From a virus, in the IMG/VR virus record IMGVR_UViG_3300047476_000972, positions 1-64,000 of that record: 64,000 nt of DNA. One strand, 5' to 3'. The translations under genes and the position numbers were made by a program. Numbering within the stretch: the stretch's first letter is position 1; each line of letters opens with the position of its first letter. The notes beneath the pieces are model-generated. The model searched no databases. It worked only from the letters and a program-made list of their open reading frames with translations, and was not told the origin of the DNA. Below, in pieces: positions 3-15,105 of this stretch.

Positions 3-3000
3 AACCCAACCAAGGCTGATATCGCCTCTGCAATTCCACTAGAGGACTTCCTGAAGACTCGCACCGACGCTCCAGAGGGTTGGACCAAGAACGAGGATGG
101 TTCTTTCACTTCTAAGTCTGGTCAGACTGTTAAGGCAGTTGACGCTCAGCCGGAGGGTGACTACATGGTTGAAGGCGCTGGCGAAAGCAATGCGATTGAC
201 CCTGACGTTCCTCTATTCGAAATTCGCGACAAAGACGGCAAGATTCTCGGTGTTGGCCAGAACTGGGCGGGCCTGAACAAGATTGCCATGACCTACGATG
301 CTCTTAATGGAGAGGGCGATGGCACTCCAGAAGAACCAGGCCTAGACCAGACCGCTGGCGAAGGCAGTGACTGGTTTGATAGCGCAGTTGACTTTGACCA
401 CTTATCTGATCCACAGAACTGGAGCCAGTTTAAAGACGGCGAAGCCACCTATACTTCTCCTGACGGCAAGCTAAAACTTACTTGGGAACCAGACGGTGAA
501 GGCGATGTCGGCTTCGGAGCCACCGACCTTTCTGGCATTTCTGTCGAGTACGACGGTCAGCCTGTCGGATCATTCCGAGCAACTCAGCGTGACCTCGAAG
601 AAGGCGACATCGAGGATGGTCTTAAGGATCTCCTAAAGAAGGAAAGCTGGTTCAAGCCAAGTAGCCTAGTCAAGACCGAAAACGACGGCAACTCTTACGG
701 GTTTGACACCGACAAGGGCTACGTAGAAGTAACTCCAGAATTTGACAAGAGTGGCAAGTTCATCGGCTACAAGGTTGAAAAAGAAGCTCGCGATCTAATT
801 GACGAAAACCGTGAAGGCTCTTATTTCAACACCTCTAAGTTCAAGACCAAAGAGGAAGCTCTAGCTGATGCAGAGAAGTTCGCTGAGACTCTTAACGACG
901 AAGACAAACTATCTGATCTTCTAAACGAAAGCTACATGGACGACCCTGGCTTTGACCAAGCTCCGGGTAAGGGAACCGAACTAAGTGAAGCTGGCAAGAA
1001 GATTGCCAAGGACCTAGGTGACCACAAGTTCTTCTATGAAGAAGATGCTGATGGCAATCTAACCGGAGGAGAAGCAACTTACACATCTCCAGATGGCCGC
1101 GTAGAAGCTAAGTACCGCGATGGCTCTTGGTTCGATGACGAGAAGGGCTACATTCCTTGGGACGAGATCGAGGTCTCTGTTGATGGGAAGCTTGTTGACT
1201 CCTTAGTTCGAGACAAACGAGAGTCTTGGCCTGACTTCCTTGACCGCGTTGCCGCTATGTCGGAAAACGGTCTAGAAAATCCTAACTATGCAGAAGAGAA
1301 GAAGGCTAAGCGCGAGGCCGATCGTAAGGCTCGCGAAGACTTCTATAACTCACCAGAGCAGGTAGAAAAGCGCGCACAGGCCAAATGGGAGAAAGAGCAG
1401 GCAGATGCCGCTCAGGAGCAGGCCCGCGAATCTGTTGACAAAGAGGGTCTACTTAAAAAAGTAGATGACCTAGCAAACAAGATCTTTAGTGGAGATAGCG
1501 GAGCCAGCGAAGAGTTCTGGGTGGGCGATGAAGACGAAGACGGCTACCGCAACTGGGGCGTTTACAGTGAAGATGGCGATGAAGTTGCCAGCGGAGTTTT
1601 CGGACCAACTTGGGATGAGACCGATATTGCTTCTGAAATTCGCAACGGAGTCAACGCTCACTTGGACAAGAAGCTTGATGAACTTGAGCCAGCCGCTGGC
1701 CTTGACCAGAATGCAGAGGCACCAACTAAGCCACTATCTGAAAAGCAGATGGAGCCAGCGACTGACAAGCAATATGCTTTCCTAGAAGAGCTACGCTCAG
1801 AACGTGACGGCATCTCGCCCGCAACTGAGAAAGCCATTCAAGATGCACTGGACAACCGCAACCTGACTAAAGCTCAGATGGCATCAATTCTTGGAGAGGT
1901 AACCAAGAAGCCTTTCAAGCCTGGTGTTGACCCAACCAAGCCAACTGAGCGCCAAATCAACTCACTTCAGGGCTACCTGTCTACTAAGGAACTAACTCCT
2001 GACGAGATGAACGACATTCTCGCCGAGCTTGATGCAGGGCTAGATCGTGACTCAATTGAGAAGCTCACCGCTAAGCTACGTCGTCGTCCAGACCGTCAAC
2101 AGACTGAAGGTCTTGATCAGTCAGCGGGTACCCGTTTAACAACTAACCCAGACGGGAGCTCAGAGTACTTCGGCGACGGTGCAGAAGTTGTTGTAGAGAA
2201 AGACGGTGACAAGTTCAAGGTCACGAAGTCTGCGTCTCAGTTCTTGCTAGACGAGAACATCGAACACAGCTACGAAAAAACCGAGACTTACGATTCTGAA
2301 GAAGAAGCACGTAAAGCAGCGGAAGACTTTGCAGCGACCATTGATGATCGCGACAAGCTCTACGACGAGATTTACGAAGACTGGCGCAACTCTGGTGCTG
2401 GCTTTGATCAGGCACCTGGAGAAACCAAGACTCTGTCCCCAAAGATGATGGAACCAGCTACTGATGCTCAGTACAGCTATCTAGAGGGACTCTTCGAAAG
2501 CAAGAACGGCGTTGACGCTGACACGGCTCAGGCAATCACCGAAGCTTTGGAATCTAAGAATCTGACCAAGGCTCAGGCTGGTGCATTTATTGGCAAGCTC
2601 CGCGAGCTAGGTGACAAAGAAAACCTAGGCCAATATGGCAAGCCTTCTCAGAAGATGATTGACTCTGTAAAGCGTGACGTTTACGCTAAGGGTTTGTCTG
2701 ACGCTGACCGTGAGGAAATTCTTAAGGACCTAGAAAACCGCTCAAAGGGCGATGTTTCATCTATCATCAGCATGTTGAAGGACATGGACAATGTTGCTGG
2801 CGGTATGGAGAAGTACATTGACAGCCTAGTTCAGAGTGGCGATGTTAACGCTTTGAAGCGTCTACGTGAAGATGGCCGTTTTGGAGACTACAACGTTGAT
2901 TTAGACAATGCTATTTCTAAGCTAGAGTCTGGTGACAAGGGTTTTGATCAAGCAGCCGGAAAGCAGTACGGAACATCTTGGGAGCAGATGAAGCCAGAGT

Positions 3001-3797
3001 TGGTTTCGTTGGCTGAGGATACCGAGAACAGCGATGAAAAAGGCTACGCGTTCTTAAGTAAAGAATTTGTAGAGGGCCTTGACCCAAACGATATTGATGA
3101 TGCCTACTACCTTTACTCCGAGTTGATGGATGCATACAAAGCGATGCGCCCTGAATCAGAAGAAGGCAAGGCACTAGAGGCTCGCCTGAAAAAGTCAGCT
3201 GACGACTTGCTCGCCAAGATCGAGTCCGACATGGGACCTATCGAAGCAGCTAAGCGTAACCCGGACGACATGGGAAGTACTTTTGAATTTGGTAAGGTTT
3301 TTGATGAAATTGAAGATCTAATTTCTTACTACTACCCTTCAAATGCAGACGAAATTGCCGACCAGCTAACCGACGATGATGGCGGTATTGTTGGCGATGT
3401 TCGCGGAGGCGGCTGGGAAGGTTCAGTACGTTTCAACGAAGAGACTGACAAGTGGGAAGCCCGCATGACTTCTCCTGGCCAAGACTCGGAGAACTACGGC
3501 GAAGACTTCGACTCCCTGTCTGACGCTGCCAACTGGGTTGGCGCGAGCATGGCAGACGAGAACAAGTATCTTCCTCCTCTAGAGGCTCGCCTGCTCAATG
3601 ATGGTTCGCAGGAGTCTCTAGAAGATTTGATTAAAGAGTACGGTGACGATCCAGCTGTTCTAGTTGAAAAGATTCGTTCAGCTGCAGCGTGGTTCCGTAC
3701 TACTCGTCGAAACCAAGGAGACCAGATCGCTAATAAGCTGGAAGACTACGCCGACAGGGTAGAACAGCTTAATGGCGGCACCTCCCCAAAAGCCTAG
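3..3797 (+). CDS. Modular linker-repeat polyprotein, N-terminus outside window (0-frame product)
   Basis: The frame is open from the first bases of the window, so the first ATG (165) is probably internal and the true start lies upstream. Counting from that ATG there are 1,210 residues, highly acidic, with no signal peptide or membrane segment. Modules are separated by G-L/F-D-Q linkers at residues 59, 262, 512, 649, 746 and 926. Three module types occur twice: a beta-type unit with GEATYTSPDG (about 92-157 and 302-365), a helical unit ending in DEDKL/DDRDKL (about 185-256 and 673-741), and a helical unit starting EPATDxQY (about 529-640 and 762-870). The enzymatic function is not recognised. 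It precedes the capsid protease gene and shares its linker with the ArdC-like domains read after a -1 shift at 3785-3791. A packaged, injected defence-evasion protein is my inference. Confidence 0.7.
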   Translation, partial: NPTKADIASAIPLEDFLKTRTDAPEGWTKNEDGSFTSKSGQTVKAVDAQPEGDYMVEGAGESNAIDPDVPLFEIRDKDGKILGVGQNWAGLNKIAMTYDALNGEGDGTPEEPGLDQTAGEGSDWFDSAVDFDHLSDPQNWSQFKDGEATYTSPDGKLKLTWEPDGEGDVGFGATDLSGISVEYDGQPVGSFRATQRDLEEGDIEDGLKDLLKKESWFKPSSLVKTENDGNSYGFDTDKGYVEVTPEFDKSGKFIGYKVEKEARDLIDENREGSYFNTSKFKTKEEALADAEKFAETLNDEDKLSDLLNESYMDDPGFDQAPGKGTELSEAGKKIAKDLGDHKFFYEEDADGNLTGGEATYTSPDGRVEAKYRDGSWFDDEKGYIPWDEIEVSVDGKLVDSLVRDKRESWPDFLDRVAAMSENGLENPNYAEEKKAKREADRKAREDFYNSPEQVEKRAQAKWEKEQADAAQEQARESVDKEGLLKKVDDLANKIFSGDSGASEEFWVGDEDEDGYRNWGVYSEDGDEVASGVFGPTWDETDIASEIRNGVNAHLDKKLDELEPAAGLDQNAEAPTKPLSEKQMEPATDKQYAFLEELRSERDGISPATEKAIQDALDNRNLTKAQMASILGEVTKKPFKPGVDPTKPTERQINSLQGYLSTKELTPDEMNDILAELDAGLDRDSIEKLTAKLRRRPDRQQTEGLDQSAGTRLTTNPDGSSEYFGDGAEVVVEKDGDKFKVTKSASQFLLDENIEHSYEKTETYDSEEEARKAAEDFAATIDDRDKLYDEIYEDWRNSGAGFDQAPGETKTLSPKMMEPATDAQYSYLEGLFESKNGVDADTAQAITEALESKNLTKAQAGAFIGKLRELGDKENLGQYGKPSQKMIDSVKRDVYAKGLSDADREEILKDLENRSKGDVSSIISMLKDMDNVAGGMEKYIDSLVQSGDVNALKRLREDGRFGDYNVDLDNAISKLESGDKGFDQAAGKQYGTSWEQMKPELVSLAEDTENSDEKGYAFLSKEFVEGLDPNDIDDAYYLYSELMDAYKAMRPESEEGKALEARLKKSADDLLAKIESDMGPIEAAKRNPDDMGSTFEFGKVFDEIEDLISYYYPSNADEIADQLTDDDGGIVGDVRGGGWEGSVRFNEETDKWEARMTSPGQDSENYGEDFDSLSDAANWVGASMADENKYLPPLEARLLNDGSQESLEDLIKEYGDDPAVLVEKIRSAAAWFRTTRRNQGDQIANKLEDYADRVEQLNGGTSPKA

Positions 3798-5053
3798 CCC
3801 CCGAAGAGGGGGCTGAGCCTGGATTAGATCAGGACGCTCCAGATTTAGCAAGAATCTCTAGCATCCTTGATAAGTACCGCACTAAACCTGCGACTACTAA
3901 TTCTGTTCGCCCTGCAATGCCTGAAGGTGAACCAGGATCCAAAACTAATCCGCTCGAGCTTACCTCGGAGCAGTTTGACGAGAAGCTTGCTTCTGTAACC
4001 GAGACCAACAAGTCCGCGGCATCTAGCGTTCTTGCTGATGTATTAGAGAAGCTACGCACCCCTAAGAATATTCAAGCTTGGGCGCGCAAATGGGATAGGG
4101 ACGCTAATCGACCTCTCCCGGTTAACCCTGCAAGTGAGACCCACTACACAGGGCCTAACTTGCTTGCGCTAGAAAACGCAGCTTCGGAAAACGGATTCAG
4201 CGACCCTCGTTGGATGAGCGCCTCTCAGGTTGCTCAGGCTGGTGGCTCGATTCCAGCCGGAACCAAGGGTACTCAGATTCTCGTACCTAGCTTCTATGTT
4301 GCCAACCGTGATGGCAAGGTCGTTGAGTACTTTGAGTTCAGAAAAGTTACTGTTTTTAACGGTGACCAGATTCAAGGAATAAATCCATACAACGCCGACG
4401 ACAACAAGTCATATACTGCAAAGGAAGCTGTAGATATTGTTCTCGACAGGATGCGCGAAGCCGCAACTCTCCGAGATGTAGAAACTCCAGAGATCTTCGG
4501 TATTCAGCTAGATAAAGATCAAAATCCTCGCTGGTCACCAAACTACGGTAGAGATGTTGATAGCGTACGACTACCACTCCGCGCAAACTTTGATAGCGAT
4601 GAGTCTTGGTTCAATGCATTTGCTCACGAGCTTATTCACAGCACTGGTAGAACTAACCGACTTAACCGAGAAGAAGTTAAGAAGGCACTGGATGGGAACA
4701 GTAATTCCTACGCAGAAGAAGAGCTAACCGCTGAGCTAGGCTCTATGCTTCTAGCAAAGATGTTCGGGATAAATTCTGACCCAAGCAACTCGATTAGCTA
4801 TCTACTCACCCACATCAAGAACCTAGACGGCGTGAATGCCGATAAGGCCGTGACTGACGCCATGACTAGGGCTCAGCTGGCGGCGGACTACCTGCTGGGT
4901 AACGACGTTCTTCCTCAGTGGAACCCGCTCAAGACTAAGGTTGCTCCAACTCTACAGTCAGCAAGAATGGCGTCTACTACTCCAGAAGACTCTAGCTTGA
5001 ACCCAAACACTAACCCTGATTCAGTTGATGCTCCTCTAGTAGGCCTTGACCAA
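339..5053 (+). repeat. Dispersed G-[LF]-D-Q linker repeat (8 copies)
   Basis: A short protein-level repeat, G-(L/F)-D-Q followed by an Ala/Pro/Gly-rich stretch such as APGK or AAGK, begins at nucleotides 339, 948, 1698, 2109, 2400, 2940, 3821 and 5042. Each copy sits at the boundary between distinct sequence modules. The copy at 3821 lies in the -1 frame between the stop at 3797 and the first ATG of the ArdC frame, so the repeat itself links the two frames. It may be a flexible spacer or a protease recognition site. A related GGLDRNRG occurs in the capsid protease near nucleotide 8208. Confidence 0.85.
3785..3815 (+). promoter_or_regulatory. Programmed -1 ribosomal frameshift signal
   Basis: In the upstream frame the codons CCA AAA at 3786-3791 are preceded by C, giving C CCA AAA, a perfect X XXY YYZ slippery heptamer. 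Four bases later a 7-bp G+C-rich stem (3796-3802 with 3808-3814) closes a 5-base GAAGA loop; its base overlaps the zero-frame TAG at 3795-3797. The -1 frame opens at 3773, after a TAA at 3770, and stays open to 6097, so a shift can only occur between 3773 and 3797, exactly where the heptamer lies. There is no T-tract after the hairpin, which argues against an intrinsic terminator. Confidence 0.85.
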
Positions 5054-6097
5054 GCCCCGGGTAAGAAGCCTTTCAACCGTGCCAATTCAGTGTCAGATAG
5101 CAAGGACGCCAAAGAGCGAGTTCTATCTGGCCTACTGGAAAAGATTAAAGAAGGTAAGGCTCCTTGGCGTAAGCCATTCAAGGACGACGCTAACTATGCT
5201 GGTGCATTCGTTCCGCGTAACCCAGCGTCAAAGCACATCTACAGCGGTATTAACTCGATTGTTCTTCGACTACACCAAGAGCTTGCTGGGTACTCAGATC
5301 CTCGCTGGATGACATACAACCAAGCCACTGATCTAGGTGGTCAGGTTCGTAAAGGATCTAAGGGTGTTCAAATTCTTGTTCCTTACAAAAGGGTCAAGAA
5401 AGAGAAGGACTCTTCAACCGGAGAAGAGAAGGTAACTGGTAGCTATGTCACCTTCGGCGTAAAGACCGTATTCAATGTTGAACAAATTGATGGCCTAAAC
5501 CTGCCAACTGTTAAGGCTGAAGCAGGCGAACCAAAAACTCCTCTAGAGTCTCAGGATTTTATTCTGGAACGCTATCAGAAGTCAATGGAAGCCAAGGGTC
5601 TGAAGGCTCCTCAGGTTTCATACACCTATGTTGGTGCGTACGGAAGCCACTCGTCTTCTCCAAACTGGAACCCAGCTTCTGACGTCATTACTCTTCCAAC
5701 CAAGGAGCAGTTCAACAGCCCAGAGGATATGTTCGACACCATTGCTCATGAGTTAGCCCACTCGACCGGACACAAGGACCGCCTTGACCGCACCGAGCTA
5801 ACTAAGAACTACGGGACAAGCAATGCAGCTCGAGGCGAAGAAGAGCTTATCGCGGAAATTTCTTCAGCGATCCTAGCTAGCATGTTCGGCGTAAACAGCG
5901 ACTTTGACAACACTGCGGCTTATGTAAAGAGCTGGCTACAGGCACTACAGGATAACCCTGATATGGTTATGAAGGCCTCTTCTGAAGCTCAGAAGGTAGT
6001 AGACTATTTGCTAGGTATGGATCTGGGAGACTGGAGCCCTATCGAGGGTTACCGATCATCAAACAAATCTAAATCAGATGGAGACTCAGATGAGTAA
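3791..6097 (+). CDS. Tandem ArdC-like antirestriction metallopeptidases, translated by -1 frameshift
   Basis: Two ArdC-type units are fused. Each has an ArdC N-terminal ssDNA-binding-like domain (signatures such as DPRW, Q-x6-GG, KGTQILVP/KGVQILVP, TVFN-x3-Q-I) followed by a zinc metallopeptidase domain with HExxH (HELIH near nt 4627; HELAH near nt 5749) and a downstream EEEL-x-AE segment that could supply the third zinc ligand. A GLDQAPGK linker at 5042 separates the units. ArdC proteins protect incoming DNA from restriction endonucleases. The first ATG (3917) has no Shine-Dalgarno, and the in-frame region from 3791 to 3916 encodes another linker (GLDQ at 3821), so I read this as the C-terminal part of the upstream polyprotein made by frameshifting. 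Independent initiation at 3917 is the alternative. Confidence 0.8.
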   Translation, partial: SLAPEEGAEPGLDQDAPDLARISSILDKYRTKPATTNSVRPAMPEGEPGSKTNPLELTSEQFDEKLASVTETNKSAASSVLADVLEKLRTPKNIQAWARKWDRDANRPLPVNPASETHYTGPNLLALENAASENGFSDPRWMSASQVAQAGGSIPAGTKGTQILVPSFYVANRDGKVVEYFEFRKVTVFNGDQIQGINPYNADDNKSYTAKEAVDIVLDRMREAATLRDVETPEIFGIQLDKDQNPRWSPNYGRDVDSVRLPLRANFDSDESWFNAFAHELIHSTGRTNRLNREEVKKALDGNSNSYAEEELTAELGSMLLAKMFGINSDPSNSISYLLTHIKNLDGVNADKAVTDAMTRAQLAADYLLGNDVLPQWNPLKTKVAPTLQSARMASTTPEDSSLNPNTNPDSVDAPLVGLDQAPGKKPFNRANSVSDSKDAKERVLSGLLEKIKEGKAPWRKPFKDDANYAGAFVPRNPASKHIYSGINSIVLRLHQELAGYSDPRWMTYNQATDLGGQVRKGSKGVQILVPYKRVKKEKDSSTGEEKVTGSYVTFGVKTVFNVEQIDGLNLPTVKAEAGEPKTPLESQDFILERYQKSMEAKGLKAPQVSYTYVGAYGSHSSSPNWNPASDVITLPTKEQFNSPEDMFDTIAHELAHSTGHKDRLDRTELTKNYGTSNAARGEEELIAEISSAILASMFGVNSDFDNTAAYVKSWLQALQDNPDMVMKASSEAQKVVDYLLGMDLGDWSPIEGYRSSNKSKSDGDSDE

Positions 6098-6318: not shown

Positions 6319-9300
6319 ATGAACCACCTAATCGGCCGCTCTGGCGAACTAGCATTCTATGCTAACAACACTCACGGTGTAGTTATTGATACTGCCGTAG
6401 GAGCCGTTGTCGCCAGCGGTGCAGCGCTAGACCTATTTGCAGAAAACAAGTGGGAGCTTTCATCGACTCCTCTCACTCAATCAGAACAACTTCTTGCTGA
6501 CAAGGTCATAGCCACTCTAGAAGAAGACGCTATTGTTGCATCTGCTGACAGGATGTACACCATCCCTAAGTCAGCTCAGGCAGAGGCGGAAAAAGCCTTG
6601 GCTTGGCGGAAAGAAGAAGGCAGAGGCGGAACCCCTGTCGGCCTTAACACTGCCCGCACCCTCGCTAAGGGCGGTCAGATTGGCATCCGCAAGATCCGCC
6701 ACATTGCTAAATACTTCCCTCGTCACGAAGTTGACAAGAAGGGTAAGGGCTGGAAGCCAGGCGAAGACAACTTCCCGTCTAACGGACGTATCGCATGGGC
6801 ACTCTGGGGTGGAGACGCCGCTTGGCGTTGGGCACGTGCCATCGTTGAGCGCGAAGACAAAAAGGAAAACTCTGTCACTGCGGGTGGATACACTATTTCT
6901 AACTACGTTGATCAGATCAACTACCCTAAGCAGAATGAAGAGCTAAATCCTTTTAAGTACGCTCACGAGCTTGACGCAAACTACGGCCCAGAGTTCTTGG
7001 CTCGAGTCTGCCTAGATGGTTCTGGCATTGACCGACTCTACATGATCGATATTGATGGTTCTGTACACGTCTGGGATGACGGGTGTTGGGACAACCTAGG
7101 TCATGTTGATGGCGACATCTGGACATATGACCGAATGCTAGATGACGTCTATGATCTTGAGGAAAAATCTCACGTAATTATTGACCCTCAGTCTGCACTT
7201 ATGATTGCAGCGCGTATGGCTGTAGACCCATATTGCAAGACTTCTGTTTTTGACCTAGACTCTGACGAAGCGGCTCTAATGGAAGCTGGCATCGGCGGAG
7301 AAGACTGGGAATTCATTGACCAAGTCATTACTGCTGCAGCTTCTGATCAGGATGGTAACTACACTCCAGAAGAGCGTTCAGCAAATGCTGGAAACCAGCC
7401 TCGCAATGCTACCGGTCAGTTTGCCAAGGTAGGCCAGAAGGTAGCTATTGGTGGAGACGCTGCTAGAGGTTCTGGCACAATCCGAGACATTGACGGTGCG
7501 ACAGGCATTGTCACCGTCGACCTTGAAGACGGTAGATCCGTCAAAGTTGGCTCTAAGTACTTAGTACCAGCAGAAAAGGCAAACAGCCGACCAAACTCAC
7601 TTCGTGTTGATGACGCTAGCAAAGCTCCTATGGACTTTTCTGGAATCATCGGGGAGCCTCGTACTCCTCAGAACAGCAAGAAGGCTCACCTTCCGGGAAC
7701 CCTACCGAAGCTAGATGTTGATGCATTTATCAACAACTACGCGTCTTGGGTAGAGAAGGAACGCTACAAGCCAAAGAACGCGGCTGACAAAGCTGCTGTT
7801 AAAAAGCGTTGGCCAAATGCCAAGTTCACTGAGACTTCTATCATTGCAGCGGCAGAAGAAAAAGAAGAGATTCTTACTCCTTCTACTTCTGACGTAAGAC
7901 CTAGATACCTTGCCATCGTTGATCAGCAAGACCCAGAGGCAATGGTTGATCTCGTTGCTGTTATCCCTAAGACCGCTACTTCCACTACTCCTCTTGTCTA
8001 TAAGCGTGAGGGAGATAAGTGGGTTCAGGATGACCAAACTCTAGCTGACCTACGCTCGGCTACCAAACCTCCAGTAATTGAACTAGATAAAGAATCCCTA
8101 AAGGATGTCTTGTCTCAGATGGCAGAGGGAAAGCCTACAGAAGAATCTGCCCCGGAGGCTGTTGCAGCTAGCTTGCTAACTGTCTTTGATGCATTTGTTG
8201 CTGCTGGCGGCCTAGACCGCAACCGTGGCAATGCGGAAGAGCTTCGCCAATACTGGACTCGTGGTAAGGGCGCTGCCAAGATTCGTTGGGGCACTCCAGG
8301 CGACTGGACTCGTTGCGTCCGTCAACTTTCAAAGTACATGGGCCCACGTGCCAAGGGCTATTGTCAGCTTCGTCACAAGGATGCCACTGGCGTATACACT
8401 GGTAGCCGTCTAAACCCGGGCCGTCGTAACGAAACTTCTAGCCTATTTGCCAGCGAGATGGACTTAGTCCAGTCAGTAGTTGCTCAGTCCGAACTAACTG
8501 CGAGAGCAAACGACGCGAGAGAGCGTCTAGGGCTGGTCGCTGGTGCAAAAATGGAGCACGGTGCCAAGTTCAACATCCCTCTACTGATCCCAGAAGACTT
8601 GGAATCAGGAGATGGTCGTAAGTTTGTAAAGGACTCTCTGTCAGTTCGAGAGCTTCCACTTCCACTCCTATGGCAGATCAAGACTGGCGACGGTCACATG
8701 GGGTCTGTAGTAGTTGGACGTATTGATTACGTAGAAAGAACCGAAAACGGTATCGGAAATGCCTATGGCGTTTTTGATACAGGAGCATATGGTCAAGAGG
8801 CAGAGCGTCTAGTACGTAACGGATTCATCCGTGGTGTTTCTGCAGATCTAGACCAGTTCGAGGCAGAAGAAGAGAAGACTGAAAATGCCGAGGACACCGA
8901 AGACGTAGGCAAGAAAAAGCTAACTATAAATCACGCCCGTGTAATGGCTGCTACAATTGTAGCTAAGCCTGCATTCCAAGAATGCACTATCTCTATTGAA
9001 GAACAACCAGCGGGAGACCAGGAGGATGAAGTGATTCCAGTTGACGGAATATACGAAGAATCCGTCGAACAAGAATTCTCTGGCGCACCGCTAGTTGCTT
9101 CAGGATTCATTGACGGCGAGATTCCTATGACACCACCAGCAGAGTGGTTCAAGGACCCTAAGCTGACTAAGGCTACCCCGATTACTGTTGACCCTTCTGG
9201 TCGCATTTACGGACACATTGCAGCTTGGCACGTAAACCACATCGGTATGCCTCGCTCTACCCGCCCACCTCGCTCAAAGAGCAAGTATGCTTACTTCCAC

Positions 9301-10824
9301 ACTGGCGTAGTCCGCTGTGCCGATGGGACTGACATGCCAGTCGGTCAGCTAACTCTTGCTGGTGGGCACGCTCCACTAACTGCTAACGCAGCTTCTGCCG
9401 CTAAGCACTATGACGACACCGCTTCTGCGATTGCCGATGTCCACATGGGTGAAGACGAGTACGGTATCTGGTGCTCTGGCTCTGTACGTCCAGACGCAAC
9501 TGAAATGCAGATTCGTGCACTTCGCGCTTCTGCTCCTTCCGGTGACTGGCGTCCAATCAACGGCTCACTTGAGCTTGTTGCTGTTTGCCAAGTAAACGTT
9601 CCAGGCTTCCCGATTGCTCGCGCGATGGTTGCTTCAGGTAAGGTTATGGCTCTAGTTGCAGCTGGCGCAAGCATGATGGCAATCATGAAGAGCCAGCACG
9701 TAGCGACTCTATCTGAGCGTGCACACAACCTAGCCGAGCTCTCGGCTAATGCTCCTGACCTACGCTCTCGCGTTAAGTCAGCTAAGAAGGCTGTAAAGAA
9801 GCAGGCTATTATTGCCGCTGCTACTAAAGCAGAGGAACTAAAGACCCGTGCTCTAGTTGCTGCAGCTGTTGCCGAGCTAGCTAAGTTCTCCGAAGAAGAG
9901 AGATCTGAACTTGCTGACAAGGGCTTCGCGCTTCCAGACGGTTCTTACCCTATTCGTAACGAGCAAGATCTACGTAACGCAATTCAGGCATATGGACGTG
10001 CAAAACGCGAGAAGCGTGTTACCGTTCGCAAGCACATTGTTAAGCGAGCCAAGGCTCTTGGTAAGGCATATCTAATTCCAGACGAATGGAAGTCAGCCGG
10101 ATCAACCGAGGCTGCTACTATTGTTGCTTCGATGCGCTCTCGACTAGCGGAGTTTGCAGAAGCTCCAGCCAAAGAAATTTCTGATGCTGACCTAGAGAAG
10201 CTCAAGGATGCTAAGCAGGAAGCTGACAAGCAAACTGAAGAAGAGATCAAGATTGCTGAAGACATCCGTACAGGTAAGACCACTGCTAAGGAAGTCTATG
10301 ACGCAGAGGGTCGCAGTAAGTACACCCCAAAGACTCAGCCTCGTGATGCTAAGGGAAAGTACCGTAAGGTCCTTGCTCGTCTAAAGCAGAACCTAGGTGT
10401 AGCTGGTCTTCAGAAAGCCCTAGAAAAAGTAGAAACTGCCGAAAACCTAGAGTTTGCTGGTGACTACGTAAACTCGGCTAAAGCCAGCAGTGAGCTACTA
10501 GGGATGATTGATCGTCTAGACACTAAGGCCCTAAACCCTGAGTCTCTAGAGAACGTCCGCTCAACCGCGGCCGAGCTCGGCAAGACCATTGCCAACCTTC
10601 CATTGCCATTCGGCAAGGAAGCTCAGAAAGTTAGATTTAGCGATCTACCTGCCGGACTAAAGACACTCATCGATGGGATGATTTCTCGAGTCGAAGCAAA
10701 GATCGGTAAAGAGGACGCAGACGTTGCAACCGCAAATCTGAAGTCCTTCATGTCCGGAGCAGATGTCTATTCTCAGGCTGAAATTCAGTCAGAGATGAAC
10801 ACCCTGCTCAGACTCCTTACCTAA
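6319..10824 (+). CDS. Giant multidomain capsid maturation protease
   Basis: This 1,501-residue protein is far longer than a typical prohead protease (about 200-300). Visible parts are: an actinophage-type region at residues 80-180 (GGTPVGLNTARTL, IAKYFPRHE, GRIAWALWGGD); a small beta-barrel-like part near 385-420; a Trp/Cys-containing region after GGLDRNRG at about 630-700; a prohead-protease-like domain at about 745-895 with a Ser candidate in GVSADLD and a His candidate in GDGHMG; a second conserved region at about 930-1110 (GRIYGHIAAWH, YFHTGVV, GGHAPL) annotated as capsid maturation protease in other actinophages as far as I recall; and a basic helical region near 1208-1260. It lies just before the major capsid gene, as expected for head maturation. 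Exact catalytic residues are inferred. Confidence 0.7.
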   Translation: MNHLIGRSGELAFYANNTHGVVIDTAVGAVVASGAALDLFAENKWELSSTPLTQSEQLLADKVIATLEEDAIVASADRMYTIPKSAQAEAEKALAWRKEEGRGGTPVGLNTARTLAKGGQIGIRKIRHIAKYFPRHEVDKKGKGWKPGEDNFPSNGRIAWALWGGDAAWRWARAIVEREDKKENSVTAGGYTISNYVDQINYPKQNEELNPFKYAHELDANYGPEFLARVCLDGSGIDRLYMIDIDGSVHVWDDGCWDNLGHVDGDIWTYDRMLDDVYDLEEKSHVIIDPQSALMIAARMAVDPYCKTSVFDLDSDEAALMEAGIGGEDWEFIDQVITAAASDQDGNYTPEERSANAGNQPRNATGQFAKVGQKVAIGGDAARGSGTIRDIDGATGIVTVDLEDGRSVKVGSKYLVPAEKANSRPNSLRVDDASKAPMDFSGIIGEPRTPQNSKKAHLPGTLPKLDVDAFINNYASWVEKERYKPKNAADKAAVKKRWPNAKFTETSIIAAAEEKEEILTPSTSDVRPRYLAIVDQQDPEAMVDLVAVIPKTATSTTPLVYKREGDKWVQDDQTLADLRSATKPPVIELDKESLKDVLSQMAEGKPTEESAPEAVAASLLTVFDAFVAAGGLDRNRGNAEELRQYWTRGKGAAKIRWGTPGDWTRCVRQLSKYMGPRAKGYCQLRHKDATGVYTGSRLNPGRRNETSSLFASEMDLVQSVVAQSELTARANDARERLGLVAGAKMEHGAKFNIPLLIPEDLESGDGRKFVKDSLSVRELPLPLLWQIKTGDGHMGSVVVGRIDYVERTENGIGNAYGVFDTGAYGQEAERLVRNGFIRGVSADLDQFEAEEEKTENAEDTEDVGKKKLTINHARVMAATIVAKPAFQECTISIEEQPAGDQEDEVIPVDGIYEESVEQEFSGAPLVASGFIDGEIPMTPPAEWFKDPKLTKATPITVDPSGRIYGHIAAWHVNHIGMPRSTRPPRSKSKYAYFHTGVVRCADGTDMPVGQLTLAGGHAPLTANAASAAKHYDDTASAIADVHMGEDEYGIWCSGSVRPDATEMQIRALRASAPSGDWRPINGSLELVAVCQVNVPGFPIARAMVASGKVMALVAAGASMMAIMKSQHVATLSERAHNLAELSANAPDLRSRVKSAKKAVKKQAIIAAATKAEELKTRALVAAAVAELAKFSEEERSELADKGFALPDGSYPIRNEQDLRNAIQAYGRAKREKRVTVRKHIVKRAKALGKAYLIPDEWKSAGSTEAATIVASMRSRLAEFAEAPAKEISDADLEKLKDAKQEADKQTEEEIKIAEDIRTGKTTAKEVYDAEGRSKYTPKTQPRDAKGKYRKVLARLKQNLGVAGLQKALEKVETAENLEFAGDYVNSAKASSELLGMIDRLDTKALNPESLENVRSTAAELGKTIANLPLPFGKEAQKVRFSDLPAGLKTLIDGMISRVEAKIGKEDADVATANLKSFMSGADVYSQAEIQSEMNTLLRLLT

Positions 10825-10949
10825 AAAGTAAGGTACAATTAGTGATAGGTGGAGCGCCTCGCACATTTCGTGCTGAGTCCCTCAGCCTTGACTGTTCACC
10901 ATGAGTGAGGATTTCTCATTCATAAACCAATACTGGCCTAGGAGGTACA

Positions 10950-12974
10950 GTGTACGACCAGATTAAAACACAGCTAGACACTCTGGCTGATCTTAGCGAT
11001 GAACAACTCGCTGAGCTTCAGACTCAGATCGTCGGCGAGTTTGAGTCGATCGATGCTGATGAACCAACTTCTCAGTCAGTTGATGCGATGACATCCCTTG
11101 CGGATTCCCTTGACATCGTACGTGGTGAGCTTTCTCGTCGCGAGGCCCTCGCTGAAGAGTTAGCTGCTCGTGCGGCTGAGGCTACTGCCCGTATTAAGGG
11201 TGGAGCTGAAGAAGGAGAGGAAATGGCTATGGAAGACATGCCAATCGTGGAAGAGGCCCCTGTAGAAGAGGCCCCTGTTGAGGAAGCCCCAGTAGTAGAA
11301 GCAGAGGAAACTCCTGCTGACGAAGTTACTGAGACTCCTGAAGAGGAAAAGAAGGAAGAGGAAGAGGACAAGGAAGAGCCTATGAAGGCATCTGCTGAGA
11401 CCGAAACCGCTCCTGAAACTTCAGCATCAATTGACCAGGAATCAGGTTCTGAACTATCGACCGAATCGGTTGAGACTGTTGACGAGACCATTACTGCAGA
11501 CGGTTCTGCTGAGGAAGTAGTTGCTGATGAAGCACCTGCTGCCGAGGTAGAAGTAGAGACTATCGAAGCCGCGGCCGAGGTAGTTGTAGAAGCAGTAGAG
11601 GGATCAGAAGCATCAGCCGAAGAAACCACTTTAGAAACAACAACCGCTCTTGTAGAAGAGCAGAAAGAGCAGGCACTAGTGAGCGCCGCAGCAGAACAGC
11701 CTTTTGAGGCTCCAGCTGACCGTCAGCCTGTAGTTCAGGTATCAGAGGCAGCTCCAGTGGCAATTACCGCTGGCGCAGACATCCCTGGCTACACCGCAGG
11801 CAGCACCATTAACGACATGTACGAAGTAGCTTCGGCTATGGAGAAGCGTATCCACTCGCTACGTCGTGTAAACGGCGGCGATGGAGAGCAGCACATCGTT
11901 GCATCTATCACCACCCAGTACCCAGAAGAGCGTACCCTAACTGCTAACGCAGAAGAGAACGCACTGAAGATTGGTAACGTTGTAGGTCAGGACGCACTTG
12001 TTGCTTCTGGTGGCCACGCTGCTCCATTCGAAGTCAAGTACGACATCTTCTCGATCGGTTCAACCACTGTACGCCCAGTTCGCGATGCATTGCCTCGCTT
12101 CCAGGCTGACCGTGGCGGTATCCGCTTCGTAACTCCACCATCATTCGCTGCTGGTACCTACGCTGACGCTGTTGGTGTATGGACTGCTGCAACTGATGCT
12201 GACCCACAGTCTGCTACCAAGACTAGCTACACCGTAGTCGCTGCTTCAGAGAACACCGTTTCTACTGACGCTGTTACTCTGCAGCTACAGTTTGGTAACC
12301 TCATGACTCGTGCTTACCCAGAGTTGATTGCTCGCCACAACGAGCTAGCTCTTGTACAGCACGCTCGCGAGGCTGAGCAGAACTTGCTAAGCAAGATTGG
12401 TGACGCATCTACTGCTGTTACTACCACTAACCTAATCGGTTTTGGTCGTGACTTCCTAGTTCAGATCCGTCGTGCAGCTGTTGCTTACCGCTCACGTCAC
12501 CGCATTGACCCACAGACCCGCTTGAAGGCAATCGTTCCTTCATGGATCTACGAGGCAATGGCAGCTGACCTAACTCTATCGATGCCTGGTGACGGTACTC
12601 TTGCAGTATCAAAGTCAGAAATCGACGGCTACCTAGCAACCGTTAACGTTGACCTAGTAGCTTCTCTAGACGCAACTGTCTTCGGCTCACAGGGTGCATC
12701 TGCACTTCTAGAGTTCCCAGACAGCTTCGTTTGGTACCTATTCGCTGAGGGAACATTCTTGTTCCTAGACGGCGGTACCCTAGACCTAGGTATCATCCGT
12801 GACTCTTCACTAGTCGGCACCAACGACTACAAGATGTTCACTGAGACCTTTGAGAATGTTGCTAAGGTCGGCATCGAGGCTCTTAAGATCACCTCGACCA
12901 TCTCAATCAACGGTGTTGCTGCAGCTCTGCGCGACACCACTGGTGGCACCGCTGCAGCCACCATCGAGCTCTAA
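10950..12974 (+). CDS. Major capsid protein with acidic scaffold-like N-terminal domain
   Basis: The start is GTG at 10950 after a strong AGGAGG. Of 674 residues, the first ~270 are Glu/Val/Ala-rich with EEAPVEEAPV-type low complexity, resembling an internal scaffold or delta domain that the protease would remove. The rest looks like an HK97-fold coat protein, with phrases such as DALPRFQADRGGIRF, RRAAVAYRSRHRIDP and FLFLDGGTLDLGIIRDS. It sits directly after the protease and before a second capsid-type gene. A 21-codon frame overlapping its start was rejected as a gene. The capsid assignment rests on position, size and residue pattern. Confidence 0.8.
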   Translation: MYDQIKTQLDTLADLSDEQLAELQTQIVGEFESIDADEPTSQSVDAMTSLADSLDIVRGELSRREALAEELAARAAEATARIKGGAEEGEEMAMEDMPIVEEAPVEEAPVEEAPVVEAEETPADEVTETPEEEKKEEEEDKEEPMKASAETETAPETSASIDQESGSELSTESVETVDETITADGSAEEVVADEAPAAEVEVETIEAAAEVVVEAVEGSEASAEETTLETTTALVEEQKEQALVSAAAEQPFEAPADRQPVVQVSEAAPVAITAGADIPGYTAGSTINDMYEVASAMEKRIHSLRRVNGGDGEQHIVASITTQYPEERTLTANAEENALKIGNVVGQDALVASGGHAAPFEVKYDIFSIGSTTVRPVRDALPRFQADRGGIRFVTPPSFAAGTYADAVGVWTAATDADPQSATKTSYTVVAASENTVSTDAVTLQLQFGNLMTRAYPELIARHNELALVQHAREAEQNLLSKIGDASTAVTTTNLIGFGRDFLVQIRRAAVAYRSRHRIDPQTRLKAIVPSWIYEAMAADLTLSMPGDGTLAVSKSEIDGYLATVNVDLVASLDATVFGSQGASALLEFPDSFVWYLFAEGTFLFLDGGTLDLGIIRDSSLVGTNDYKMFTETFENVAKVGIEALKITSTISINGVAAALRDTTGGTAAATIEL

Positions 12975-13000
12975 TAGTTCGATAAAGCAGTTATCGTTGA

Positions 13001-13024
13001 GGGAGGGTCCTTCGGGGCCCTCCC
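13001..13024 (+). other. Strong UUCG-capped hairpin after the major capsid gene
   Basis: A 10-bp stem (13001-13010 with 13015-13024, one U-G pair) closes a UUCG tetraloop, 26 bases after the capsid stop codon. No U-run follows, so it is more likely an mRNA 3' stability element, processing site or partial terminator that raises capsid expression over downstream genes than a simple intrinsic terminator. Confidence 0.7.
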
Positions 13025-13064
13025 AATACGAGTAAAAACATAGACTTTATTTAGAGGATTTTAA

Positions 13065-13940
13065 ATGGCTTTCACAAAGACTGGTGTTGTAACAGCACCG
13101 AAGATTGTGCCATCAGCTTTTGGCCTACTCGCTGTAGTCAAGCCAGAAAATGGTCCTAACGAGGACCAGTGGGTCCGCGGATTCTCCCAAGAATGGGAAA
13201 CAACCCTTTACTCAGCAACTAACTGGGACGACACCGACTCTACTGATGGCGAAGTTGTCGCTGCTGGAGCACCAACTTACTACACCGAAATTAAGCCTTG
13301 GTTTATCGAGGCAGAAGAGCTACGCTCTACCCTAGGTTTTAGCGGTCTTGACCGTATCGAGCGACTAAAGCGTCAGCTAGAGGGCATCACTCAGCACGCT
13401 ATGGAAGTTGAACTCTGGGACGGTGCAGTTCGTAAGGGTGAGTCACACGCTAATCTGGCTCTTTCCGATGCCGCTGCTACCATTCTCAATAGCGGATCTG
13501 CTCTCTCGCCTAAGCGTGCACTTGCTCTTCTAGAGCACTCAATCGGTCAGGTATCAGACGGTGGCGAGCAGGGTGTAATTCACATGACTCGCGATGTTGC
13601 AGCTCTTCTAGCTAGCAACTCAAACATGCTTTTCCACGACGCCGGAACAGAACACCTACAAACCATGGGTGGGACTCCAGTAGTTGTTGGATCTGGTTAT
13701 TCAGGCACTGGTCCTGATGGTGCAACTGGTGCTACCGCGTCAGTCACCAACAAATGGATTTACGCCACTGGCACCGTCCGCACTTATGTGGGCGATGTTG
13801 ATGTCGTGAACGACAATCTAAGCCAAGCTTACGATGTGTCGGGTAATGCGAATGACATGCGTCTCAAAGCAATCCGCCCAGCCGCGGCTTACTTTGATAC
13901 ATCAATCCACCTTGCTGTTCGAGTCGATCTAACAGCCTAA
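13065..13940 (+). CDS. Second capsid-type structural protein
   Basis: A 291-residue protein starting at ATG 13065 after AGAGGA. Phrases such as ALALLEHSIGQVSDGG, GVIHMTRDVAALLAS, GGTPVVVGSGYSG and WIYATGTVRTYVGDVDVV fit a coat-like or head-decoration protein. The gene lies between the major capsid and major tail genes. Some actinophages have separate hexamer and pentamer capsid proteins; this could be the pentamer or a minor capsid protein, but sequence alone does not decide. No enzymatic motif is seen. Confidence 0.55.
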   Translation: MAFTKTGVVTAPKIVPSAFGLLAVVKPENGPNEDQWVRGFSQEWETTLYSATNWDDTDSTDGEVVAAGAPTYYTEIKPWFIEAEELRSTLGFSGLDRIERLKRQLEGITQHAMEVELWDGAVRKGESHANLALSDAAATILNSGSALSPKRALALLEHSIGQVSDGGEQGVIHMTRDVAALLASNSNMLFHDAGTEHLQTMGGTPVVVGSGYSGTGPDGATGATASVTNKWIYATGTVRTYVGDVDVVNDNLSQAYDVSGNANDMRLKAIRPAAAYFDTSIHLAVRVDLTA

Positions 13941-13959
13941 ACCTAAGGAGAATAGCTAA

Positions 13960-15105
13960 ATGGCTACTCAAGAATATGCAGCTAGCATCCAGGGTGTGTC
14001 TATTCGCGTCACCCGTCTGGATTCTGCCGGCAACTTGATGACTGGTCCAGGAGACAGCTATACCACCTCTGCATTCATGCGTATCTCGTTCACTCCAGAA
14101 TATGAAGAGGGCGACGAGATCACTGAAAAGGGTGCAAACGGTGTTGTATGTGTAACCTACAAGGCACCAGACACACTGAAGCGTATCACCATGGAGCTCG
14201 CAATCTGTGAGCCAGACCCAGAGCTTTCAGCTCTATTGTCTGGTGGTCTACTGCTTCGCAAGAACATCGGATCTTCTGAAGACCCTAACCTAAAGTCTGT
14301 CGGTTGGGCAGCTCCTGGTGTTGGTGACGACCCTGCTGGTAACGGTGTTGCCATCGAGGCTTGGTCACACGCTGTTAAGGACGGAAAGCGCGCTGGCGTT
14401 CTTCCTTACTTCCACTGGGTATTCCCATACGTGAAGATGCGTCAGTCAGGTGACCGCGTTATTGAAAATGGTCTATTGGCTAACACATTCGAAGGCTTTG
14501 GCCTTGGAAACTCGGCCTTCCAGTCTGGTATTGATGGCCGCTGGGAATTCCCAGTTGCTGCAGAGCGTCCATACGCTTACGCACGTGCCGACTGGGCTCC
14601 AACCGGTCTAAACGGCTTCTACACTTGGACTGATGGAACTGGTCCAGTTGTATTTACCGCACCAAACGCTAAGTCACCTACTGCGATCAACATTGAGAGT
14701 GCTGCAGCTACTTACGCTAGCTCGACTGGTACTGCAACTCTTACCTTCAGCGCGGCTCACGGTATCTCGGCTAATGACCAGATTTATGTCCAGAATGTTG
14801 GCGCAGCGTTTAACGGCACCTACACTGTATCTTCTTCTGTTGGTGCGACTGGTACTGGCGGAACCTACACTGTTAGCTACGTAAGCACTGGCGTCACTGA
14901 TGCCATCACTAGCTTCGACGTATCGTCTGGTGCTCGTGTAACAGTTACTAACTCGGTAACTGAAACTCACCCAGCTCCTACCGCTGTAACTAGCGCACAG
15001 CTTGGTGCTGATGCTGATGACACCAGCTACAACGTACCTGGAAACATCAACTACAACGCTGACAACGACATCGACAACATCATCGTTTCGAACGAGTCAG
15101 AGTAA
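13960..15105 (+). CDS. Major tail protein with C-terminal beta-sandwich-like region
   Basis: A 381-residue protein with start ATG 13960 after AAGGAG. The first ~215 residues resemble siphovirus tail-tube proteins, with beta-rich text including TSAFMRISFTPEYEEGDEI and PYFHWVFPYVKM. From about 245 there is a Thr/Ser/Ala-rich stretch (ATLTFSAAHGISANDQIYV, GTYTVS) typical of Ig-like or surface-exposed decoration domains. It ends in an Asp/Asn-rich tail. It is placed after the capsid genes and before the connectors. The major tail call is an inference from order, size and composition. Confidence 0.65.
   Translation: MATQEYAASIQGVSIRVTRLDSAGNLMTGPGDSYTTSAFMRISFTPEYEEGDEITEKGANGVVCVTYKAPDTLKRITMELAICEPDPELSALLSGGLLLRKNIGSSEDPNLKSVGWAAPGVGDDPAGNGVAIEAWSHAVKDGKRAGVLPYFHWVFPYVKMRQSGDRVIENGLLANTFEGFGLGNSAFQSGIDGRWEFPVAAERPYAYARADWAPTGLNGFYTWTDGTGPVVFTAPNAKSPTAINIESAAATYASSTGTATLTFSAAHGISANDQIYVQNVGAAFNGTYTVSSSVGATGTGGTYTVSYVSTGVTDAITSFDVSSGARVTVTNSVTETHPAPTAVTSAQLGADADDTSYNVPGNINYNADNDIDNIIVSNESE

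Follow-up and report, generated by a model that had tools for sequence, protein, structure and literature searches.

Polyvalent proteins, as described by Iyer et al. (2017) (PMC5512222), are long, multi-domain proteins that combine ArdC-N with a zincin-type metallopeptidase (MPTase), are encoded beside head genes, and have domains that are reshuffled among relatives. Self-processing by the MPTase was proposed in that study for these proteins, including P1 DdrB, which carries an MPTase, although the N4 vRNAP and the plasmid proteins ArdC/TraC1 were cited as being transferred uncut; it contains neither the word "frameshift" nor the word "linker" (PMC5512222). The Dar proteins of phage P1 (DarA and DdrB) are head-packaged anti-restriction proteins, and DarA is a substrate of the P1 prohead protease, which trims it (PMC12810830).

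A second group of comparable systems is defined by recoding. In tail assembly chaperone genes of the lambda gpG/gpGT type, a slippery sequence lies at the overlap of two ORFs and is conserved among relatives. In retroviruses, a −1 frameshift directed by a slippery heptamer and an RNA structure adds the protease to a modular product (Gag/Gag-Pol). Programmed frameshifts annotated in phages are overwhelmingly of the tail assembly chaperone kind, which made up 2397 of the 2476 joined genes in one survey (PMC10885494).

The locus described here shares the above features of the polyvalent proteins, and differs from them in that its MPTase part lies in another frame, reached via a predicted −1 shift, and in that its modules meet at a uniform G[LF]DQ seam. 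The P1 Dar proteins differ in being encoded by separate genes without a described frameshift or repeated linker motif, and their packaging has a presumed counterpart here. The locus resembles the tail assembly chaperone genes in its conserved slippery sequence at a two-ORF overlap, but the gene is a different one, it lies in the portal-protease interval, and the extension is long and carries enzyme domains. The likeness to Gag/Gag-Pol consists of a modular upstream product, a heptamer with an RNA structure, and a peptidase found in the shifted product only; by contrast, there is no homology, a zinc metallopeptidase stands in place of an aspartic protease, and both cleavage and a set product ratio are presumed in the phage.

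The gene slot and its relatives

The window analyzed comprises 64,000 nucleotides (bases 1-64000 of a 77,561-base IMG/VR virus record). Because it begins at the first base of the record, the 5′ end of ORF1 is missing; complete orthologues are available in five relatives (L002, L003, L004, L008, and L010), and ORF1 of the relatives is 1723-1943 aa long. The genes and domains concerned are as follows.

3-3797, + strand: ORF1, a modular polyprotein of the polyvalent type, truncated at the contig start
3791-6097, + strand: ORF2 as read past the predicted −1 shift (SLAPEEGAEPGLDQ...), assigned from synonymous and nonsynonymous differences in the −1 frame
3833-5041 (bounds approximate), + strand: first ArdC-N + MPTase-PolyVal unit (HELIH), from Pfam PF08401 and PF18818 and the HExxH motif
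5102-5983, + strand: second ArdC-N + MPTase-PolyVal unit (HELAH), from Pfam
6319-10824, + strand: prohead protease fusion, S78-like, a context gene, from PHROG matches and annotated orthologues

ORF2 contains two ArdC-N (PF08401) and two MPTase-PolyVal (PF18818) domains that score far above the Pfam cut-off (164 bits for MPTase-PolyVal vs a cut-off of 27.5), and its zincin motifs, HELIH and HELAH, are each followed by a downstream E. These four domains are fused to the modular ORF1 via the predicted −1 shift. In relatives, the giant-protein gene occupies the interval from the portal gene to the protease/capsid genes, which is the head-gene location typical of polyvalent proteins, and this portal-protease interval contains one or more giant proteins in every locus whose contig covers it. 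Judged by its domains and its location, the ORF1+ORF2 product is a polyvalent protein of the class of Iyer et al. (2017) (PMC5512222). The suggestion of the initial annotation that the locus encodes a modular, head-linked defence protein was thus upheld by the polyvalent domains within a head-gene cluster, the two zincins, and the adjacent prohead protease.

The 6319-10824 product matches head maturation protease/portal families in PHROG, and its orthologues are annotated as capsid maturation proteases; the Pfam family PF04586 was matched only at E = 0.024, under the cut-off. By terminase and protease, the closest named relatives are DSL-LC01, a metagenome-assembled phage (PMC10611076), and Microbacterium phages, from which the host of the window phage is probably an actinobacterium. 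DSL-LC01 and the Microbacterium phages Pumpernickel, Cece, A3Wally, and Big4 have a protease and a terminase orthologous to those of the window, and a giant protein with a similar N-terminal domain in the same gene slot. These giants differ in that they are encoded by a single ORF, have A/P/E-rich linkers, and contain no G[LF]DQ; a search of them for an HExxH zincin found none. Nearly all the relatives are metagenomic. Among genome contigs, the protease query yielded a single short match, in a MAG, and the ORF1 N-terminal query yielded nothing; annotated phages showed no match to the window DNA or the ORF1 protein. Rfam and tRNA scans of the 64,000-nt window and a PADLOC scan of the three proteins (ORF1, ORF2, and the protease) were empty.

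The predicted −1 frameshift and its signal

That the G[LF]DQ motif occurs in two frames is the key clue to the expression of this gene, because the copy at 3821-3832 lies past the stop of ORF1 (3797) but ahead of the first ATG in ORF2 (3917), in a stretch without ATG, GTG, or TTG. Two elements are found at the overlap.

3785-3791, + strand: slippery heptamer C_CCA_AAA, the predicted −1 site in the ORF1 frame, kept in 7/7 genomes
3796-3814, + strand: putative stimulatory hairpin AGCCCCC-GAAGA-GGGGGCT, with an invariant stem and a variable loop (z −3.3)

In all seven genomes of the window group, an in-frame CCCAAAA precedes a GCN codon and the TAG that ends ORF1, after which comes AGCCCCC-loop-GGGGGCT, whose loop takes several forms. 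In each of these genomes, ORF2 is in the −1 register relative to ORF1. Conservation of the ORF2 frame starts exactly at the slip (PKS.AP..GA). Downstream of the hairpin, gap-free comparison of five genomes gave 44 synonymous and 22 nonsynonymous codon differences in the −1 frame, vs 9:55 in the 0 frame and 3:69 in the third frame. A search of the whole viral collection with the exact DNA pattern of the slip cassette matched these relatives only.

The presence of an ATG at 3917 in the window would allow ORF2 to be a separate gene starting there, or the overlap might simply reflect a sequencing error. However, this ATG is not conserved among the relatives, four of the seven genomes have none of the common starts (ATG, GTG, or TTG) for 60 codons past the slip, and the −1 frame upstream of the ATG is under protein-level selection; a sequencing error is ruled out because numerous independent contigs carry this signal as well. 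A locus without frameshifting is accordingly very improbable. The signal and its conservation instead predict a conserved programmed −1 ribosomal frameshift that links ORF1 to ORF2 and on which the two ArdC-MPTase units of ORF2 appear to depend.

The same design is found in more distant relatives. A search with the adjacent protease as the query returned 80 loci. Nine further loci of the relatives split the giant protein by −1 (L038, L039, L042, L048, L049, L068, L086, L093, and L094). In all nine, a heptamer lies in frame, immediately 5′ of the ORF1 stop.

L038 and L093: AAAAAAA, then TAG
L039, L042, L048, L049, and L086: CCCAAAA, then TAG or TAA
L068 and L094: AAAAAAA, GCA, stop

A hairpin 3′ of the slip was predicted in 8/8 distant loci that were folded, with shuffle z values of −1.8 to −3.8 over all sites; that of L086 retains the pairing although its inner sequence is unlike that of L039, L042, and L048. 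Every distinct distant locus encodes an HExxH zincin in the second frame (L049 is nearly identical to L048), and a downstream E motif is common to the seven distant zincins aligned. These zincins are of another type than the MPTase-PolyVal found in the window group: the L094 zincin passes Pfam Peptidase_Mx1, and a PDB profile search with this second type reached at best E = 0.009, which is only suggestive. The combination of a predicted frameshift with a zincin recurs across the group with unrelated zincins. L103, which has a −1 overlap without a slippery site, was left out of the frameshift count.

The two parts also occur as one. In L096 (5766-9329), a natural in-frame fusion without a slip site encodes both parts of a protein whose homologues are split by the frameshift in L068 and L094, which supports the joined protein as the real product elsewhere. 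The single-ORF relatives L055, L064, and L066 carry an ArdC-MPTase towards the C-terminus, together with an exonuclease and, in two of them, a UvrD helicase, and contain no G[LF]DQ. More widely, the same-slot single-ORF giants of L041, L043, L055, L064, and L066, with their UvrD or PIF1 helicase, exonuclease, and ADP-ribosyltransferase domains, form a rich pool of polyvalent proteins that have so far escaped annotation. As a separate observation, the zincin region of L086 (6009-9068) contains an inserted stretch that resembles residues 1676-1893 of the DSL-LC01 protein; the insert separates HEVGH from the glutamate motif downstream of it and looks HipA-like by eye.

G[LF]DQ linkers and module exchange

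The initial annotation had reported eight copies of G-[L/F]-D-Q in two frames within 339-5053. Exactly eight were counted, six in the ORF1 frame and two in the ORF2 frame, against 0.058 expected for these frames from composition.

339-350, + strand: linker 1, GLDQ (motif count; low-pLDDT joint)
948-959, + strand: linker 2, GFDQ (motif count; low-pLDDT joint)
1698-1709, + strand: linker 3, GLDQ (motif count; low-pLDDT joint)
2109-2120, + strand: linker 4, GLDQ (motif count; low-pLDDT joint)
2400-2411, + strand: linker 5, GFDQ (motif count; low-pLDDT joint)
2940-2951, + strand: linker 6, GFDQ (motif count; low-pLDDT joint)
3821-3832, + strand: linker 7, GLDQ, 10 codons past the slip, with access predicted through the frameshift only; in 7/7 genomes
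5042-5053, + strand: linker 8, GLDQ, separating the two ArdC-MPTase units

The core is followed in the window by A/T/N/S/D, then A/P, and then usually G/P. The 12-mer that encodes it differs in all eight copies, which rules out a recent duplication or DNA repeat as the origin of the linkers and implies that the repeat is maintained at the peptide level. In an AlphaFold2 model of window 339-3794 (alignment of 7 rows, mean pLDDT 66, pTM 0.27, with 248 of the 1152 residues below pLDDT 50), the ORF1 linkers, at model residues 1, 204, 454, 591, 688, and 868, fall in six separate inter-domain segments of pLDDT < 50 without secondary structure. An AlphaFold model of the first 430 aa was of low quality (pLDDT 44), and Foldseek found no usable match with the ORF1 model.

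In the viral-contig searches, ORF2 identity was about 90% for L002, L003, and L004; the corresponding values for further relatives were 67% (L008), 72% (L010), and 62-71% (L026/L031). Across seven genomes, G[LF][DN]Q occurs 64 times (L 38 and F 26; D 62 and N 2), mostly followed by A/D/N/K, A/P, and G/P. The counts of G and Q in this set are fixed by the search pattern, and the unbiased view comes from the orthologous columns, in which G, D, and Q are fully retained at six of the eight window positions where a residue is aligned, L and F interchange, and the flanks are 53-84% conserved. Three genomes depart from this pattern: L004 reads GFNQ at one site, L008 differs in a module, and the first linker of L031 is degenerate. 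An extra G[LF]DQ in L003 (WEGLDQDTKD) was rejected as a chance match within a module, where L004 has WDELDQDTKD. Taken together with the codon differences, this pattern indicates that the linkers are under peptide-level selection.

When the proteins of the seven genomes were cut at the motif and the pieces clustered, module order was found to vary, with the changes at linker boundaries. Module H is present in L002 and L003 only, modules G and F are absent from the window, and in L031 an additional module, M, follows the frameshift and precedes ArdC. The relatives thus gain, lose, duplicate, and swap modules at the linker joints while a core is retained, and the earlier placement of the motif at module boundaries is borne out both by this swapping and by the disorder predicted for the six modelled copies. 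In L031 (7701-7755), an in-frame ORF1 stop adjoins a duplicated 16-aa stretch, GLDQAAKSVSDRDRQL; the stop and duplication reflect either linker-mediated recombination or a misassembly caused by the repeat.

These observations would fit linkers that are never cut and serve either as docking motifs for a head component or as standard joints that form a favoured seam for module exchange. Their position in disordered joints, the turnover of modules at the seams, and the A/P/T/E-rich joints that homologous giant proteins use in place of G[LF]DQ agree with such a role. On the other hand, a plain joint does not need to retain G, D, and Q at nearly every orthologous site, and a seam for pure DNA recombination is at variance with codons that differ in each copy. 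Uncleaved linkers of this kind are plausible, yet short of probable.

Possible cleavage and a proposed mechanism

That G[LF]DQ is kept so exactly suggests a recognized peptide, and the proteases encoded at the locus offer two candidates. The first possibility is that the linkers are sites of the 6319-10824 prohead protease, so that a packaged polyprotein would be cut into its modules at head maturation, as in the case of DarA. The S78-like protease is encoded by the adjoining gene, there is the precedent of P1 DarA (PMC12810830), and the motif, with a hydrophobic P3, Q at P1, and often A at P1′, is reminiscent, in how its specificity residues are spaced, of the A-X-E rule followed by the SPN3US prohead protease gp245 (PMC10052503). 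However, G[LF]DQ is absent from the major capsid protein, including its N-terminal region, and from the protease of this phage, two proteins that the prohead protease must cut, and the relatives in other lineages with an orthologous protease lack it. In the major capsid protein (window 10950-12974), a conserved QV[STK]E-APVAI.AGADIPG ends the acidic N-terminal region and is itself a candidate prohead cleavage site. Cleavage of the linkers by the prohead protease therefore seems unlikely.

The initial annotation had also linked the motif to GGLDRNRG within the protease, and this part of its proposal failed.

8206-8229, + strand: GGLDRNRG, start of a folded domain (phrog_6439), from a PHROG match; not a linker

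The sequence begins a conserved folded domain, AAGG[L/A]DRNRG[N/G]AE, that is found also in phages without any linkers, and it was rejected as a ninth copy. Separately, the orthologue of this protease is split or bears an insert in several relatives, including L066. In L040 (=L003) and L086, at about 10000-15000, two ORFs each match the domain of protease aa 623-697 (GGLDRNRG...RWGTPGDW), which is duplicated at the protease split, and in DSL-LC01 (L019; 20804-25723) the orthologue is present as three CDS. No Rfam intron match was found for the split or inserted proteases.

The second possibility is that the MPTase recognizes the linkers in cis, in which case the frameshift would set the amount of protease and the minority long form would process the majority short form. 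The zincin, of which there are two unrelated types, always lies in the shifted part; one linker is located just past the slip and another between the two MPTase units; and autoprocessing by the MPTase was proposed by Iyer et al. (PMC5512222). Against this, the single-ORF relatives have an ArdC-MPTase without such linkers, the N4 vRNAP and plasmid ArdC/TraC1 are transferred uncut (PMC5512222), and the zincins may instead act on targets in the host. Processing in cis also appears doubtful rather than likely. Because the capsid protein and the protease lack the motif, and because relatives with an orthologous protease or an ArdC-MPTase lack the linkers, cleavage by any protease is proposed tentatively, as an event somewhat short of probable. 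The predicted frameshift, which the initial annotation had overlooked, is both the better supported and the more surprising feature of the locus.

The best explanation of the data, which we consider reasonably probable, is a polyvalent protein of a probable actinobacteriophage lineage of the lake type, made in two forms by frameshifting, with linker seams selected as peptides. Most ribosomes would terminate at 3797 and yield the modular ORF1 product as the major form, and a minority would slip by −1 on CCCAAAA, aided by the hairpin just 3′ of it, and read into ORF2, such that the fusion gains two ArdC-N/MPTase units. Frameshifting by a fraction of the ribosomes would thus keep the metallopeptidase-bearing part in constant proportion to the modular part, as the minor of the two. 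The modules would be connected through disordered G[LF]DQ seams, which would also be the places at which they are gained, lost, and swapped. The likeliest reason for so exact a peptide may be recognition by a protein, for which the leading candidate would be proteolysis that frees the modules, carried out either by the MPTase in cis or by the S78-like prohead protease. The motif statistics, the predicted disorder, the module exchange, and the frameshift signal with its conservation come from the sequences themselves; packaging and ejection of the polyprotein with the phage DNA, its cleavage, and the frameshift efficiency are inferred. It is also tempting to speculate on a phage analogue of Gag/Gag-Pol, in which the −1 frameshift doses a zincin onto the end of a head-packaged defence polyprotein that is cut at G[LF]DQ, by this zincin or by the prohead protease, into ejectable modules, an extension of the two-form model that is at present rather doubtful.

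No frameshift in a polyvalent protein was found in the literature searched, which covers only part of published work. Annotation probably records genes of this kind as two separate proteins and assigns ORF2 a start that is wrong. If a conserved frameshift does control the dose of the metallopeptidase/ArdC part on a giant anti-defence protein associated with the head, this would be a novel role for recoding. Furthermore, the proposal made in 2017 that the MPTase processes polyvalent proteins becomes directly testable, because cut sites are predicted, the dose can be separated by one silent mutation of the heptamer, and a natural fusion is available.
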